Positions 29,887 through 60,572 of a stretch of 64,000 nt of DNA are shown here, piece by piece. The DNA lies in the NCBI RefSeq assembly GCF_009707365.1, contig NZ_CP046122.1, forward strand, positions 3,534,001 to 3,598,000. The letters are read 5' to 3'. Every line of letters begins with the position of its first letter. Position 1 is the first letter of the stretch. The notes under the pieces are model-generated. The model saw only the letters and a program-made list of their open reading frames with translations. It was not told the DNA's origin and searched no databases. The stretch is from Microlunatus sp. Gsoil 973 (GTDB lineage: Bacteria > Actinomycetota > Actinomycetes > Propionibacteriales > Propionibacteriaceae). The position numbers and the translations under genes are program-made.

Positions 29887-30474
29887 TCAGAACGGCGGTT
29901 CGTCGTTGGTGTTCGTGGCCCACGGATCATTGCCCCCGACGGAGCCCTGGCCGGAGTTGTCGTTGCTCGCCCAGGGGTCGTTGCCCCCGAACGAACCGCC
30001 ACCACCCTGGCCGGAAGACCCGCCCTGCTGGCCGCCGTAACCACCCGAGTTGCCACCGGAGTTGCCGCCGTAGCCGCCACCCCGCTGGCCGCCGCCCTGT
30101 CCTCCGCCGCTGGTGGTGCGGGTGACCTTCGCGGTCGCGTACCGCAAGGCGGGGCCGATCTCGTCGACATCGATCTCGAAGACGGTTCGGCGCTCACCCT
30201 CGCGGGTCTCGTAGCTGCGGGACTTCAGCCGTCCCTGGACGATCACCCGCATGCCCTTCTGCAGCGACTCGGCGACGTTCTCGGCGGCCTGTCGCCAGAC
30301 CGCACAGTTGATGAACATCGCCTCGCCGTCGCGCCATTCGTTGCTCTGGCGGTCGAAGGTGCGAGGCGTCGAGGCAACCGTGAAGTTGGCCACGGCGGCA
30401 CCCGACGGGGTGAAGCGCAGCTCGGGGTCGGCGGTCAGGTTGCCGACGAGCGTGATGGTGGTTTCGCCTGCCAT
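29887..30474 (-). CDS. ssb: Single-stranded DNA-binding protein
   Basis: The protein has 195 residues. The OB fold occupies about 1-115 ([20 protein letters not shown], then [30 protein letters not shown] in outline). A long Gly/Gln/Ser-rich linker with [15 protein letters not shown] repeats follows, and an acidic tip ends DEPPF, which recruits partner proteins. It binds ssDNA as a tetramer in replication and repair. It lies between rpsF and rpsR in the conserved order. Confidence 0.97.
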
Positions 30475-30555
30475 TGATGTCTCCGGTGATCAGCGTGCTG
30501 GTTGATGCCCCACTGTGCCACGTGGGGCCGACAGTGTGGAGCAACCGTTCACAGA

Positions 30556-30846
30556 TCAGTGGGCGTCGGTACGCAGTACCTTCGTCCGCATGATCGATTC
30601 GTTGATACCGAGCTGACGGTCCAGCTCCTGGACGTCGGCCGGCTCGGACGTCAGATTGACGACCGCGTAGATGCCTTCCGGCTTCTTGTTGATCTCGTAC
30701 GACAACCGGCGCCGACCCCAGATGTCAACATTGTCGACGGTTCCGCCGGCATTGGTGATCACCTTCAGGTAGTTGTCGAGCGTCGGGGCGACCTGTCGCT
30801 CGTCGGTGTCCGGGTCGATGATGATCATGACCTCGTACTTGCGCAT
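30556..30846 (-). CDS. rpsF: 30S ribosomal protein S6
   Basis: The protein has 96 residues, beginning [16 protein letters not shown] and containing [27 protein letters not shown] in outline. ATG30846 is chosen because GAGGAGGAG lies upstream; the longer frame enters the leader. It is the first gene of the operon. S6 pairs with S18 on the 30S platform. Confidence 0.97.
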
Positions 30847-30876
30847 ACGCGAACTCCTCCTCCTCTGGTCTCTGCG

Positions 30877-30897
30877 GTCATGGGACGTCCCCATGAC
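30877..30897 (-). promoter_or_regulatory. Hairpin in the rpsF leader
   Basis: The perfect 8-base arms GTCATGGG and CCCATGAC surround a 5-base centre, 31 bases upstream of rpsF. In the mRNA sense a CCG follows the stem's 3' side. S6:S18-binding leaders with a CCG element are known in other bacteria, so autoregulation is possible. It could equally be a promoter-region palindrome. Confidence 0.45.
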
Positions 30898-31204
30898 AGG
30901 AGGGCGATGCTTCGGCCGCGATCCGGGACGGACCGTGGCCGACCAACCAGATTACCGGTCGCCGGTCCGGGAAGCCAATTGGCGCCGGGGCCAGCCGGTC
31001 CCGCTCGACGGCGCACTCGTCGGCTGGCAGCGCATCCCTCACCCGGGTCCCGCACCACTTACTCGGCGGCGCACCACTTACTCGGCCGCGCACCCCTCAC
31101 CCGGGTCCCGCACCACTTACTCGGCGGCGCACCACTTACTCGGCGGCGCACCACCTACTCGGCGGCGCACCACCTACTCGGCGGCGCACCACCTACTCGG
31201 CGGC

Positions 31205-31267
31205 GCACCGGCTGCAGCGGGTGCGAGGACGAGTAAGTGGAGCGGCGCCTACCAACTGGTGCGGGAA
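31205..31267. repeat. 63-bp capping unit, copy A
   Basis: Copy A starts GCACCGGCTGCAGCGGGTGC. It contains CGAGTAAGTGG, the reverse complement of the 19-bp repeat core, and CCAACTGGTGC, the reverse complement of the second repeat subtype. It is identical to copy B at 59 of 63 positions. Confidence 0.92.
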
Positions 31268-31452
31268 GCACTGTCTGACCCGGTGGGTTCGTACTGCCAA
31301 AGCTCTCGACGAGGTCGCGGGTCGCGGCGCCCTGCTCGCAACTGCACGAGTTGTTCGCAGTCGCACCAGTTGCTCGACGCTGCACCCTCTACTTCGCACC
31401 AGTTGCTCGACAGCGCACCGGTTGCTCGACGGCGCACCACATACTCGGCGGC

Positions 31453-31515
31453 GCACCGGCTGCAGCGGGTGCGAGGCCGAGTAAGTGGTGCGGTGCCGAC
31501 CAACTGGTGCGGGAA
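31453..31515. repeat. 63-bp capping unit, copy B
   Basis: This is the direct repeat of copy A, 248 bases downstream, differing at 4 positions. GCCGAGTAAGTGGTGC in this copy is the exact reverse complement of the first 16 bases of the 19-bp repeat. It can therefore pair with upstream units. Confidence 0.92.
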
Positions 31516-31540
31516 CGGCCGGCGGGCTGGCGGACTGAAC

Positions 31541-31767
31541 GGACCGGCAGCGTCGGCGTGGACCGACGGGCAGCGTCGTCGCGGACACACAGGCAGCGTC
31601 GTCGCGGACCCACAGGCACCCTCGGCGCGGACCGAGACGGCAGCGCCGGCGTCGACCGACGGGGACCGTCGTCGCGGACCGACGGGGACCGTCGCCGCAG
31701 ACCCACCGGCACCCTCGTTGCGGACCCACGGGCAGCGTCGGCGTGGAACCACGGGCACCGTCGTGTG
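31541..31767. repeat. 23-bp tandem repeat array, about ten degenerate units
   Basis: The units start near GGACCSACGGGCASCGTCG. Boundaries are 31541, 31560, 31583, 31606, 31629, 31653, 31676, 31699, 31722 and 31745. Most units are exactly 23 bases; the first is 19 and the fifth 24. It is unrelated in sequence to the 19-bp family just upstream. No spacers occur, so it is not CRISPR, and no gene signal supports translation. Confidence 0.9.
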
Positions 31768-31781
31768 GCGTCGGCTGCGCG

Positions 31782-32243
31782 TCACCCTTCGGCGAGGGCG
31801 GCAAGTCGGTCCAGTGAGGCGTGCAGGTTGTCCTTCGTGGTGCCGCGGGCACGGGAAAACCGGTTGACGTCGGTCAACTCGGTCCAGTCGTAGGTGTGGA
31901 TCACCCGGGTACGCCCCTCGGCGATGGGCTCCAGCTCCCAGCGCCACAGATGTCCCGGCGGCCGCTTGCCGACCTCGGCGGGGCGCCAGGCGATCAGCCG
32001 ACCCTCGACGAACTCGACGACATGGTTCTCCCGGACGCTGCCCTTCGTCAGGATCGTCGCGAACACCTCACCGACGGCGCGAACACGTTGGCCCTCGGCG
32101 GCCGAACCCAGATTGTCGTTCCCGTCCCAATGCGGTTGGTGGGCCGGATCGGCGATGAGTTCGAAGATCGCTTGCGGGTCGGCGGCGATCTCCCGCTCTG
32201 CCCGTACGACAGTCGGCGTCGTCTCCGTGTCCCCGGCGACCAT
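31782..32243 (-). CDS. SRPBCC family protein (polyketide cyclase/START-like)
   Basis: The protein has 153 residues with a single START-type hydrophobic-ligand fold (VRAEREIAADPQAIFELIADPAHQPHWDG, ending RGTTKDNLHASLDRLAALAEG; key residues I-F-x-L-I-A-D-P). The function is unknown; family members bind lipids or shape reactive intermediates. ATG32243 has AAGGA close by and avoids overlap with the upstream PAP2 gene. The stop lies just past the 23-bp repeat array. Confidence 0.85.
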   Translation of the reverse strand: MVAGDTETTPTVVRAEREIAADPQAIFELIADPAHQPHWDGNDNLGSAAEGQRVRAVGEVFATILTKGSVRENHVVEFVEGRLIAWRPAEVGKRPPGHLWRWELEPIAEGRTRVIHTYDWTELTDVNRFSRARGTTKDNLHASLDRLAALAEG

Positions 32244-32280
32244 GTCCTTATCGAAGCAGGTCGAGACGCCGCCGGTCAGA

Positions 32281-33162
32281 TCAATTGGAGGTCCGGGAGA
32301 CCAGGCTCGAATAGCAGCCGACGGCCATGGCAGCAACCGCAGCGATCACCCCGGCGGTGATCGGAATGACCTTGGAGGCATCCGGTCCGGCGGTCCAGTC
32401 AAAGCCGTACACGATCACCCCGAGCGCGGCAGCCGAACCGCCGAGCAGGGCCGGGAACCCACCGCCGTACCGTACGACGCCATCGGGCGAACGGCCGGCG
32501 ATGATCGCCGACATCAGGGCGGCCCAGGCCAGCGTGACCAGCATCCCGGCCACCACGTCACTCGGCCGATGCCAGGCGGCGATGATCGTGGCCAGTCCGG
32601 TCAGGCCACCGATCGCCGCACCGCCGAGGGTGACGAACCAACGCAATGCTCGCGGCGAGACCAGCACCGCGGCGAGGACGAGAGAGAAGACGAGCGTGGT
32701 GTGCCCGCTGGGCAAGGTGTTGGCGGCCTCGCCGACACCGAGATCGGGACGGCTGAGCAGATGGTCCTTCAACAGCTGGGTGGTGAGGTTGGCGCCGACC
32801 ACCAGGACAACCGCGGCGACGGCCACCCGGAACCGGCGGCGTACCAGGGCGACACCGACCATGATCGCCAACGCGACGGCGGCCGAGACGGTGCTGACCT
32901 GTTGCAGCAGCCGGATCAGCTGGTCGTTGACGTTGCTGTGGCCGTGGGACAGCACCCGCATCGCCGCGTTGTCGTACTCCTGTCCGAAGGCCGTGTGCAG
33001 GGCCACCAGGACAGTCGCCACCATCCCGGCCACCGCCGCGAACGCCAGCGGCAGCGCCGATGCGGCCGGGCTCGGACCGACCCGCCGGGGGCGGCGCCGG
33101 TCGAAGTCGGAGCCGTAACCATCAGGCCGGGCAACCGATGGCCGCTGGGTGATGAGAGCCAT
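32281..33162 (-). CDS. PAP2 superfamily membrane phosphatase
   Basis: The protein has 293 residues with six or more membrane helices. The three-part phosphatase signature is visible as LLKDHLLSRPD (KxxxxxxRP), NTLPSGHTT (PSGH), and AWHRPSDVVAG (SRxxxxxHxxxD-like; here H-R-x-x-D). It acts on lipid phosphates such as undecaprenyl pyrophosphate or phosphatidic acid at the outer face of the membrane. ATG33162 places a basic tail before the first helix. It is followed by the SRPBCC gene after 37 bases. Confidence 0.92.
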   Translation of the reverse strand: MALITQRPSVARPDGYGSDFDRRRPRRVGPSPAASALPLAFAAVAGMVATVLVALHTAFGQEYDNAAMRVLSHGHSNVNDQLIRLLQQVSTVSAAVALAIMVGVALVRRRFRVAVAAVVLVVGANLTTQLLKDHLLSRPDLGVGEAANTLPSGHTTLVFSLVLAAVLVSPRALRWFVTLGGAAIGGLTGLATIIAAWHRPSDVVAGMLVTLAWAALMSAIIAGRSPDGVVRYGGGFPALLGGSAAALGVIVYGFDWTAGPDASKVIPITAGVIAAVAAMAVGCYSSLVSRTSN

Positions 33163-55800: not shown

Positions 55801-55851
55801 GACACTTCCAGACACGTTCCGCAGATCCCCTTGCCGCACCACGTGCTGCAT

Positions 55852-55877
55852 CCCGCACCGGAAGTACCCGGTGCGGG
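55852..55877. terminator. Intercistronic hairpin between ThuA and Gfo/Idh genes
   Basis: The perfect 10-base arms CCCGCACCGG and CCGGTGCGGG surround a 6-base loop. The 111-base gap otherwise holds only the next ribosome site. The hairpin could end the importer transcript or adjust downstream expression. Confidence 0.6.
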
Positions 55878-55911
55878 AGGCAATAGGTGGTGCGGCCGGC
55901 CAGGAGGCACG

Positions 55912-58274: not shown

Positions 58275-59396
58275 ATGACCACATCACTCGAACCCGACCG
58301 GTTGACGGCCGCACTGACCGACCTGCACACGGCCGGTGTGCCCGGCGCGTTCGCCGAGGTACGCCAGGACGGCCGGATCTGGCGCGGTGCTGCCGGAGTC
58401 GCCGACCTCGACACCGGCGAACCGGTCGATCCTGATCTTGCCCACCGCGTCGGGAGCATCACCAAGACCTTCACTGCTGTCGCCGTGCTGCGCCAGGTCG
58501 AGCGAGGACAGATCGATCTCGACAGGCCGGTCGGCCACTACCTGCCCGAGCTCGTCCCGGGCGAGCGCGGGCGCACCATCACTGTCCGGATGTTGATCAA
58601 CCACACCAGCGGACTGGCCGAGTATCTGCCGTACGCCTACCCGTCCCTGCGATCGTTCCCGGTGATCGCGAAGACGACTCCGGAAAGCCTGGAGGCCGAA
58701 CGGCTCCGCAGTTTCGATCCGCTGGAGTTGATCAAGCTCGGCGTGGCCGCCCCGGCCACAGGCGGGCCGGGCAGCTCGCCGGGCGTCTACTCCAACACCA
58801 ACTACCTGCTGTTGGGACAACTTCTCGATCGCGTCACCGGGATCGGAGCCGAGGAGTTGATCACCAAGGACGTCATCGAGCCCGCCGGCCTGCGTCACAC
58901 CGACTTCCCGGAGGGTCCGCGGCTCAGGGTCCCGCACTCCCGGCTCTACGAGTCCTGGTTCGGAATGCTCGAGCCGCCCCATGACTTCAGCGTCTTCGAC
59001 ATGTCCTGGGTCGGGGTCTCTGCGGCGCTGGTATCGACCGTCGGGGACCTCAACGAGTTCTTCGGCCGGCTGCTGGCCGGGAGCATCGTCGAACCGGCGA
59101 CGCTGGCCCAGATGCAGCGCACCGGCCCAGTGATCTCCTTCGAACAGAGCGTGATCGACTACGGTCTCGGGCTGCACCGCAGGGAGGTGCCCGGCCACGG
59201 CACCTTCTGGGGTCACGACGGCTCGGTCTGGGGCGGCGGTGCGATCGTGCTGTGCAGCGCAGACGGCGGCCGGCAGTTGGCCCTTGCCGCCAATCGGCAA
59301 CGGTGGAACCGACTGGACGAGACCGGGCGACCGCAGCCGCATCCCATCGATGGTGCGCTCAACCGCTTCCTGCACCTCGCGATGGGCGGGTCATGA
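58275..59396 (+). CDS. Serine hydrolase, beta-lactamase class C family
   Basis: The protein has 373 residues. Motifs are SITK (VGSITKTFT), YSN (GVYSNTNYL), and HDG (WGHDGSVWG), the last in the position of the KTG/HxG box. There is no signal peptide. It is most like D-alanyl-D-alanine carboxypeptidase or esterase-type members. It is probably co-transcribed with the membrane gene at 57780 under TetR control. The substrate is unknown. Confidence 0.92.
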   Translation: MTTSLEPDRLTAALTDLHTAGVPGAFAEVRQDGRIWRGAAGVADLDTGEPVDPDLAHRVGSITKTFTAVAVLRQVERGQIDLDRPVGHYLPELVPGERGRTITVRMLINHTSGLAEYLPYAYPSLRSFPVIAKTTPESLEAERLRSFDPLELIKLGVAAPATGGPGSSPGVYSNTNYLLLGQLLDRVTGIGAEELITKDVIEPAGLRHTDFPEGPRLRVPHSRLYESWFGMLEPPHDFSVFDMSWVGVSAALVSTVGDLNEFFGRLLAGSIVEPATLAQMQRTGPVISFEQSVIDYGLGLHRREVPGHGTFWGHDGSVWGGGAIVLCSADGGRQLALAANRQRWNRLDETGRPQPHPIDGALNRFLHLAMGGS

Positions 59397-59439
59397 TCAG
59401 CAGACGGTGATCAGGGAGACGGTGATCAGGATCTGATGA

Positions 59440-60456
59440 TCAGGATCTGGGGCCGCGCTCCAGTGCGTTCCTGATCGTGTCGCGCTGCCGGGCGCGGGCG
59501 TCCCGGAGTTTGCCCTCTGCGTCCCGGACCCTGCCGATGGCGTCGCGGACCTTCGGATCCTTGCGTACGTGATCAAGGGTGAGCGCCTCGGCAAGCTGGC
59601 CATGATCACGCCAGCCGGGCTCGGGTCGTACGATCTCAAGCCGACCGCCGAGCTCGGCATGGGTCTGCAGACCGCCGAGAATGATCTCCAGCCCGAAACC
59701 GAAGTCGTCATCGCCCTCACTGGCCCCGACATCGGGTTCGGGATCGGGATCACCGTCAGCGGCGGCCGCATCCTGCAGGTAGCCGCCTGATTGCACGAGC
59801 GGGGCGAGGTCAGGGAACCGTTCCTCGGTGACGAGTTCCCTGACCAGCTCCGCCGGGATCCGAGAGCGGTTCAGCCTTCCATCGGAGGCGATGTCGCGCT
59901 CCATCATGCTGCTGGCGCGGACGTAGTTGGTGATCAGCAGGAGAGCGCGAACCTTGTCCGCATCGGGAATCTCGAGTCCGCGCATGCAGCGCATCGCCCG
60001 GTCGACGATCGCCAGGTTGTTGGGCGTCAACAGCTGGGCCTCGGAGACCGGAACGTCTCCCAGCCACGGGTGATCACGATAGATGCCGAGCATCTGCGCC
60101 GCGAACTGGCGCAGCTGGGTCCGCCAGTCCGGGTCGACGATGCCCTCGTGTTTGCCGTCGCCCAATCCGCGGTCGGAGTCGAGGAGCACCTCGCCCGCGA
60201 CGGCATCGGCCATCAACTGGAGCAGGTCGTCCTTAGCGGTGACGTAGCGGTAAAGGGCCATCGTGGTGAAACCGAGCGCGGCCGCCACCTTGCTCATGGT
60301 CACGGCACCGAGCCCCTCGGCGTCGGCGATGCCGATCGCCGCCTCGACGATCCGTTCGTGGCTCAACTCCCGCTTGGGTCCCCGCTGCGGATCGGCCACC
60401 ATGCCCCAGCTGATCGCGACGGCCCGGGGCAGACCGCCGTCCAATGGATCACTCAC
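59440..60456 (-). CDS. TetR family regulator with TetR_C_1-type domain and helical tail
   Basis: The protein has about 338 residues. The HTH (about 30-75) reads IADAEGLGAVTMSKVAAALGF and ALYRYVTAKDDLL. The C-terminal tetracycline-repressor-like domain (about 80-235) contains WRTQLRQFAAQMLGIYRDHPWLG. The extra about 85 residues end in a charged helix (VRDAIGRVRDAEGKLRDARAR), unusual for TetR. GTG60456 and GTG60465 are possible starts. It is divergent from a flavin monooxygenase/exporter unit with three direct repeats between them. Confidence 0.9.
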   Translation of the reverse strand: MSDPLDGGLPRAVAISWGMVADPQRGPKRELSHERIVEAAIGIADAEGLGAVTMSKVAAALGFTTMALYRYVTAKDDLLQLMADAVAGEVLLDSDRGLGDGKHEGIVDPDWRTQLRQFAAQMLGIYRDHPWLGDVPVSEAQLLTPNNLAIVDRAMRCMRGLEIPDADKVRALLLITNYVRASSMMERDIASDGRLNRSRIPAELVRELVTEERFPDLAPLVQSGGYLQDAAAADGDPDPEPDVGASEGDDDFGFGLEIILGGLQTHAELGGRLEIVRPEPGWRDHGQLAEALTLDHVRKDPKVRDAIGRVRDAEGKLRDARARQRDTIRNALERGPRS

Positions 60457-60524
60457 CCAGACCACTCATCCGGATCATCGTGCCGCATCACGACTCAACG
60501 GTATCAAACCGTGTACACCGCACT

Positions 60525-60572
60525 CTGTATATGTAATACTCTGTTTATGTCGCACGCTGTATATCTCACACA
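60525..60572. promoter_or_regulatory. Three 16-bp direct repeats before the monooxygenase gene
   Basis: CTGTATATGTAATACT, CTGTTTATGTCGCACG and CTGTATATCTCACACA follow one another with exact 16-base spacing, ending 16 bases before the start. They are AT-rich in a GC-rich genome and contain the promoter region. They are candidate sites for the divergent TetR. Confidence 0.7.

Follow-up and report, generated by a model that had tools for sequence, protein, structure and literature searches.

The repeat array that precedes rpsF in Microlunatus sp. Gsoil 973 is best interpreted as a tandem pair of long, imperfect palindromes of the form (GCACC-unit)n–centre–(GGTGC-unit)m. We think it probable that the array represents two tandem gene-less copies, with expanded arms, of a dispersed palindrome whose partner, an AbiEi-like putative nuclease, is encoded elsewhere in the genome, and that this palindrome spreads in a manner resembling that of REP repeats with their RAYT proteins. 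Overall, the pattern points to a hitherto undescribed system in Actinobacteria that parallels the REP repeats and their transposases.

Architecture of the array before rpsF

The window, a stretch of 64,000 nucleotides of the Gsoil 973 genome, carries 19-bp units in two blocks at positions 31032–31515, each block with a 63-bp ‘cap’ (31205–31267 and 31453–31515; 59 of 63 positions identical). The unit sequences, their spacing and the identity of the caps are as described in a first-pass annotation of this DNA, which had also noted that the caps contain reverse complements of the units. This is borne out for the first unit type by an exact match of 16 bases in copy B and of 11 bases in copy A, and for the second unit type by a match of 10 bases in both caps. 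The caps had been regarded as the ends of the blocks; instead, each consists of a palindrome centre (GCACCGGCTGCAGCGGGTGC) and a right arm, and the 19-bp arrays form the left arms. The sequence GCACCACTTACTCG has 12 matches in the window at up to two mismatches (0.24 expected), and the single-stranded DNA of 31052–31515 folds with a z-score of −7.7 relative to 100 shuffles.

Palindrome 1 begins with a degenerate outermost left-arm unit of 20 bp (GCATCCCTCACCCGGGTCCC; 31032–31051, forward strand), followed by a left arm of eight GCACC-units on the same strand (31052–31204) that start at 31052, 31071, 31090 (20 bp), 31110, 31129, 31148, 31167 and 31186. Its 20-bp centre, GCACC-N10-GGTGC, occupies 31205–31224, and its right arm (31225–31267, reverse strand) is composed of two reversed units and a GGGAA end. 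In palindrome 2, the left arm (31344–31452, forward strand) is built from units of the GCACCAGTTGCTCG subtype, which are in part degenerate and show one irregular spacing (31382 to 31396). The centre at 31453–31472 is again GCACC-N10-GGTGC (20 bp), and the right arm at 31473–31515 (reverse strand) likewise comprises two reversed units and a GGGAA end. The right arms of both palindromes consist of reverse-complement units and end in GGTGCGGGAA.

The array is bordered by two genes that are neighbours only. The gene at 30556–30894 (reverse strand), which we take to be rpsF from its sequence and the earlier annotation, has an uncertain start codon, with the open reading frame extending to 30894 and our gene caller placing the start at 30846. 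The open reading frame at 31782–32336 (reverse strand; 31782–32243 according to our gene caller) is presumably SRPBCC-like. A coding repeat was considered and rejected, as units of 19 bp do not preserve a reading frame and the open reading frames across the array look spurious, as expected of GC-rich DNA. An unrelated tandem array with a 23-bp unit (31546–31764, ~9 copies, consensus GGCACCGTCGGCGCGGACCCACG) occupies part of the same intergenic gap and directly adjoins the palindromes; among 63 stretches of the same genome around palindrome matches, at least two matches to this consensus were found in the window only. A repeat finder additionally reported short tandem repeats at 59394–59449 and 60519–60564 (15/14 bp and 16 bp).

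A dispersed, mostly intergenic palindrome family

The first-pass annotation had proposed that many dispersed copies of the cap would favour a mobile or regulatory repeat family, and such copies were found. A search of the cap against the 4,913,910-bp genome returned 126 matches at E up to 10, a figure that is not a copy number because both strands of a palindrome are counted. The centre pattern GCACC-N10-GGTGC was found 111 times at up to two mismatches, compared with 6 times for the reversed pattern, and the longer frame GCACC-N14-GCACC-N10-GGTGC-N14-GGTGC was found 76 times at up to one mismatch, compared with 0 for its reversal. The same frame is present in 14 of 147 Propionibacteriaceae genomes, with the reversed pattern scoring 0 in each case. 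Cap matches at E up to 0.001 were confined, among the matches listed for 57 genomes, to the window’s own genome and one other (G006), and matches to the second subtype described below occurred in 3 of 40 genomes, indicating that the frame, and not its letters, is common across genomes; the core sequence changes wholesale between species. One frame match in G006 (G006:C1:2225943-2226000) has an unusual core (GCACCCGAAACGTGCC...) that is unlike those of the other G006 copies listed.

The elements of the Gsoil 973 genome fall into two core subtypes. In the window subtype, the number of units beside the centre ranges from 0 to 8 on the left and from 0 to 11 on the right (80 centres, a few of which belong to the other subtype). 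The second, simple subtype has 21 matches at up to three mismatches in this genome, and 22 of its elements were collected from the stretches around matches. It forms a palindrome of about 68 bp, with pairing of 0.66–0.74 at 29–34 bases from the centre, 0.42 at 34–40 bases and ~0.3 beyond. A solitary element of this subtype (core CTGCATCCC), with the arrangement GCACC-N14-GCACC-N10-GGTGC-N14-GGTGC, lies between two tandem genes at 55836–55893 of the window; this element, the palindromic architecture of the array as a whole and the flanked gene described below were absent from the first-pass annotation. Two loci (L068 and L072) each carry elements of both subtypes, separated by no more than about 1.7 and 3 kb.

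Placement was assessed in 63 stretches around matches, the window included, a sample chosen for its matches and not a whole-genome scan, using frames with up to three mismatches and genes from our own caller (coding density 0.86, overlaps of up to 40 bp allowed). Of 67 frame clusters, 66 are intergenic; 23 of these lie between convergent, 33 between tandem and 10 between divergent genes, while the other gaps of at least 80 bp (n = 228) comprise 17 convergent, 127 tandem and 84 divergent cases. The excess in convergent gaps is significant (Fisher p = 2e-7; 5e-4 against all 518 junctions), and the median distance of the copies is 49 bp to gene 3′ ends compared with 123 bp to 5′ ends. At 34–52 bases from the centre, the flanks of the 22 simple elements are rich in C on the left (194/396) and in G on the right (208/396), which may reflect a target preference. 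Insertion into pre-existing hairpins was rejected, since the flanks of these elements pair with their own partner (0.343) no better than with others (0.356).

A partner gene flanked by its own palindromes

Paired frames ~1 kb apart occur in several genomes, and the pairs that were opened (two each in G003, G010 and the Gsoil 973 genome, G000, and one each in G006 and G018) flank a gene for a protein of ~300 amino acids. At one of the two G010 pairs, the gene is broken (L283, 2657–3380) and lies between two GCACC palindromes. The partner gene of the window subtype is located at G000:C1:3464705-3465607 on the reverse strand, with flanking palindromes at 3464522 and 3465745, and a second partner gene in the same genome is flanked on both sides by simple-subtype palindromes, at 4662094 and 4663211. 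Both strong members of the clade in this genome therefore carry their own palindrome subtype on both sides. In a strict pairing test, the two flanks of the window’s partner gene gave 20 and 19 of 29 pairs, so that it scored as one-sided although the pattern shows its own subtype in both flanks. The four weaker paralogues matching the same profile in this genome showed no palindromes, none of their 8 flanks exceeding 18 of 29 pairs.

The N-terminal two thirds of the protein match AbiEi profiles of PADLOC in all 23 aligned members (residues 13–196 of the first member, E = 9e-18), and Pfam AbiEi_4 was matched in 18 of the 23. In the C-terminal domain, D223, E234 and K240 are invariant in the 23 aligned sequences. 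Pfam matches of this region are weak (of 10 C-termini, one matched DUF559 at 0.0024 and one MTES_1575 at 0.046) and lie below the curated cut-offs throughout the clade. The canonical spacing of PD-(D/E)XK nucleases is E-x-K, and the E-x5-K of the clade differs from it. We regard this domain as a putative PD-(D/E)XK/Vsr-like nuclease, the likeness to Vsr being our own assumption; since the D/E/K residues are conserved and the Pfam matches are only weak, this assignment is motif-based. No sequence relative was found in the PDB at E up to 10. No Y1/HUH transposase was present among the 12 Pfam families matched by the 23 members at E up to 0.1, and no transposase domain was detected, the match to HTH_Tnp_1 at 0.063 in 1 of the 23 being at chance level. 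A phage or plasmid origin was considered and rejected: among viral sequences (IMG/VR), 54 and 114 stretches fitted the peptide patterns of two profiles and none was confirmed, and one protein searched at 1e-15 had no match in 72,556 plasmid records. As for recurrent neighbours other than this gene, a Pfam scan of 116 genes of up to 2 kb adjoining the clusters showed only common families among the 25 of 216 listed, a sample that a rare family could escape.

To investigate the association across Actinobacteria, we took one locus per genome, from the best matches, in 30 Propionibacteriaceae (93 of 147 genomes had matches) and in 28 genomes of other families (181 of 296 genomes of the class encode AbiEi-like proteins with this profile at E up to 1e-30; palindromes were checked in 28 of the 181). 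With significance set at 20 or more of the 29 pairs in a 58-bp window, the 5′ flanks had palindromes in 33 of 58 cases and the 3′ flanks in 28 of 57; the corresponding figures were 0.3% for Markov-shuffled flanks and 2 of 108 for windows located 780–1100 bp away. Of 57 loci, 24 have palindromes on both sides, 13 on one side and 20 on neither, and several of those below the two-sided threshold show, by eye, decayed matching pairs. In the 24 two-sided loci, the two palindromes share 47.8 of 58 bases within a locus compared with 23.0 of 58 between loci, and the partner palindrome of the same locus is the best match in 23 cases. The palindrome centres of these loci are 107–239 bp upstream and 30–166 bp downstream of the gene. 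The gene is therefore linked to palindromes in many actinobacteria, and the palindromes differ among them.

Palindrome and protein co-vary: protein identity correlates with palindrome similarity (Mantel r = 0.49, 0 of 5000 permutations) over 36 loci with a significant palindrome, from which the near-duplicate L181 had been dropped. L181 lacks the centre of the palindrome that is present in L180. Repetition of the half-site at 19 bp exceeds the 99.9% level of shuffles in 38 of 60 Propionibacteriaceae flanks, compared with 1 of 104 distant windows; the score combines pairing with 19-bp repetition and was shaped on the GCACC type, and 29 of 50 flanks remain above this level when the five GCACC loci are left out. 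In the other families, the 19-bp register was found in 9 of 56 flanks, and a register of 20 bp is visible by eye in some clades.

Solitary palindrome copies are also scattered in the genomes that were checked. In G024, a member of another genus with the half-site GCCCC and one match to the protein at E up to 1e-20, the cognate palindrome has 53 matches (E up to 10, both strands), which at E below 0.001 and counted by position correspond to about a dozen separate places. G104 and G072 contain 8 and 7 GCACC frames, and the protein gene lies beside none of them in the 15 stretches fetched around these frames. In Microlunatus endophyticus (G012), of the same genus as the window, a remnant of the gene is found next to one GCACC palindrome, behind a gene end similar to that of G006 and G011, in which the protein gene stands behind what looks like rpoC; the best intact gene of G012 has GCTTC-type flanks that score below threshold.

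The protein gene appears to be retained at a small number of inherited sites and, for the most part, to diverge faster than its neighbours. Behind a gene that we take to encode an MBL-fold protein, the protein gene is present in G003, G014 and G017, whereas in Gsoil 973 the MBL-fold gene is followed by an array that lacks the protein gene. At this site, the G014 and G017 copies have a GCTCG-type palindrome and proteins that are 65% identical, whereas G003 has the GCACC type and a protein with 51–52% identity to both; the left neighbours are 79–84% and the right neighbours 67–75% identical. Over seven site comparisons, the protein is 51–65% identical and the left neighbour 72–88%; the right neighbour is 67–93% identical in five comparisons and 27% and 54% in the other two, where it is possibly non-orthologous. 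In one of the seven (G014/G017), the protein (65%) and the right neighbour (67%) are about equally diverged. A clean empty site was found neither behind the MBL-fold gene nor at one solitary G003 palindrome (L156), inspection by eye of the sequences around the 22 simple elements revealed no target duplication, and no recent move was seen. In two related species (L264 and L263), the solitary G003 palindrome is not kept, and the orthologous gap holds other palindromic sequences: three copies of TGACCACTGGTCA in G014 and a different hairpin in G017. The G014 and G017 sequences suggest that this gap is prone to palindromic repeats, and the differing palindromes show turnover and not mechanism.

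Proposed mechanism, rival explanations and related systems

Binding and cleavage by the partner protein and mobility of the palindromes are what we infer from these observations. AbiEi proteins are described as binding inverted repeats in their own promoters, and Rv2827c as binding four at once (PMC7319586). The AbiEi part of the partner protein would bind and read the repeated half-sites and position the C-terminal domain, which would cut or nick at the palindromes. Repair of such breaks or nicks from other copies could then spread the palindromes to new sites and homogenise them, as is proposed for REPs with RAYTs. In the window subtype, the arms would later have grown by gain of 19-bp units, probably through slippage or unequal recombination.

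The strongest rival is that the palindromes are operators of an AbiEi-type autoregulator whose C-terminal domain has lost, or never had, nuclease function, the dispersed copies being a regulon or having been fixed by chance. AbiEi and Rv2827c are indeed reported to repress their own promoters through inverted repeats (PMC7319586), and a 5′ centre 107–239 bp upstream of the gene lies where an operator could be. However, the matching palindrome that also lies 30–166 bp downstream, the preference of the Gsoil 973 copies for convergent gaps and for gene 3′ ends over 5′ ends, and the invariance of D223, E234 and K240 argue against this reading, which we consider unlikely, although regulation could hold together with the nuclease reading. 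An ordinary insertion sequence, with the palindromes as terminal repeats and the solitary copies as MITE-like derivatives, would resemble the observed unit of about 1.1–1.3 kb, in which one gene lies between matching ends and gene-less copies occur elsewhere. It is nevertheless improbable, given that no known transposase domain was found in the 23 members, that each end is itself a complete palindrome, that the two complete units seen in the Gsoil 973 genome are of different subtypes and that several related species have the gene at one and the same position.

The first-pass annotation had left three readings of the array side by side: a mobile non-autonomous repeat, a structured RNA and a protein-binding array. 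The first is favoured by the many dispersed copies with the same cap, and the third becomes a component of that mechanism through the link to an AbiEi-like protein. The second, a structured RNA or a transcription terminator or 3′-end stabiliser unrelated to the nuclease, would agree with the strong fold (calculated as DNA) and with the tendency of the copies to lie in convergent gaps and close to gene 3′ ends. Yet no Rfam match was found in 30000–33000 at E up to 1, and a consensus search of 30850–31800 gave 0 intrinsic terminators (hairpin and T run) and 0 sigma-70-like promoters; nor is the solitary G003 relative of the array conserved at the orthologous position of two related species. The wholesale change of the core between species also speaks against an RNA, and this reading, which we find very hard to sustain, leaves unexplained why matching palindromes on both sides accompany the genes of a single protein clade. 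That the elements belong to the known REP/RAYT system deserves almost no credence, even though the pattern of two cognate palindromes per gene, dispersed copies, co-evolution and fast gene evolution is the same (PMC2817692). The 23 members have no Y1/HUH match, so that the defining enzyme is absent, and the palindromes measure 58–68 bp compared with the 20–40 bp given for REPs (PMC3733652). In the 10 nt that adjoin each foot of the 22 simple elements on its outer side, the tags GTAG, GTGG and GGAG were each found 0 times and CGTC once.

The preferred reading of palindromes seeded by an AbiEi-like putative nuclease shares features with several known systems. RAYTs are described as having flanking REPs, co-evolution with them, faster divergence than their neighbours and a fixed position (PMC2817692). 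The present system is like REP/RAYT in its cognate palindromes on both sides of the gene, its many solitary intergenic copies, the co-variation with the protein and a gene that stays in place and, in most cases, evolves faster than the genes beside it. It differs in that the protein is unrelated, combining an AbiEi-like part with a putative PD-(D/E)XK domain, and in that the palindromes are longer, their half-sites recurring every 19 bp in the Propionibacteriaceae and their arms being expandable into tandem arrays. Because both enzyme and palindrome differ, the system would work like REP/RAYT without being a member of it. The AbiEi profile match in every aligned member recalls the antitoxin of the AbiE type IV toxin–antitoxin system, which binds pairs of inverted repeats (PMC7319586). 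Unlike AbiEi, the protein has an extra C-terminal domain and its palindromes lie on both sides of the gene and are dispersed. In the 24 two-sided loci, the positions of the palindrome centres leave no room for an AbiEii nucleotidyltransferase toxin gene inside the unit. The D...E...K pattern and the weak Pfam matches connect the C-terminal domain to DUF559, MTES_1575 and Vsr-like nucleases, but DUF559-type paralogues in the Gsoil 973 genome have no palindromes. The likeness to insertion sequences and MITEs consists of the ~1.2-kb unit, the matching ends and the gene-less derivatives; the differences are that the protein matches no known transposase, that each end forms a full palindrome and that no target duplication was noticed by eye.

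No description of the gene–palindrome association was found among the open-access literature matches listed, which is weak proof, subscription papers and bioRxiv being outside that search. The system has a class of protein and an organisation of repeats that bear no relation to those of REP/RAYT, although by outward pattern it could be grouped with the REP/RAYT kind. The chances seem evenly balanced that it represents a large unnamed actinobacterial class, selfish or domesticated, in which a sequence-specific AbiEi-nuclease seeds and maintains its own palindromic sites across the genome, with lineage-specific half-sites and with proteins and palindromes that change in concert, and which arose independently of REP/RAYT. 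If so, the family would constitute a natural collection of re-targeted palindrome-specific nucleases.

To our knowledge, the principal case studied so far in which short palindromes are linked to a single protein is that of REP repeats and RAYTs. If Actinobacteria have a second system that is unrelated but shares this genomic signature, it would amount to convergence and would allow the spread of gene-less palindromes to be tested with a different chemistry. The association also suggests a role for a protein that is very common in the class, and the many lineage-specific half-sites, each with its own protein, could show how DNA is recognised by AbiEi modules. For Gsoil 973 and other high-GC genomes, it would account for one kind of odd intergenic array, and it gives the array before rpsF a partner gene.
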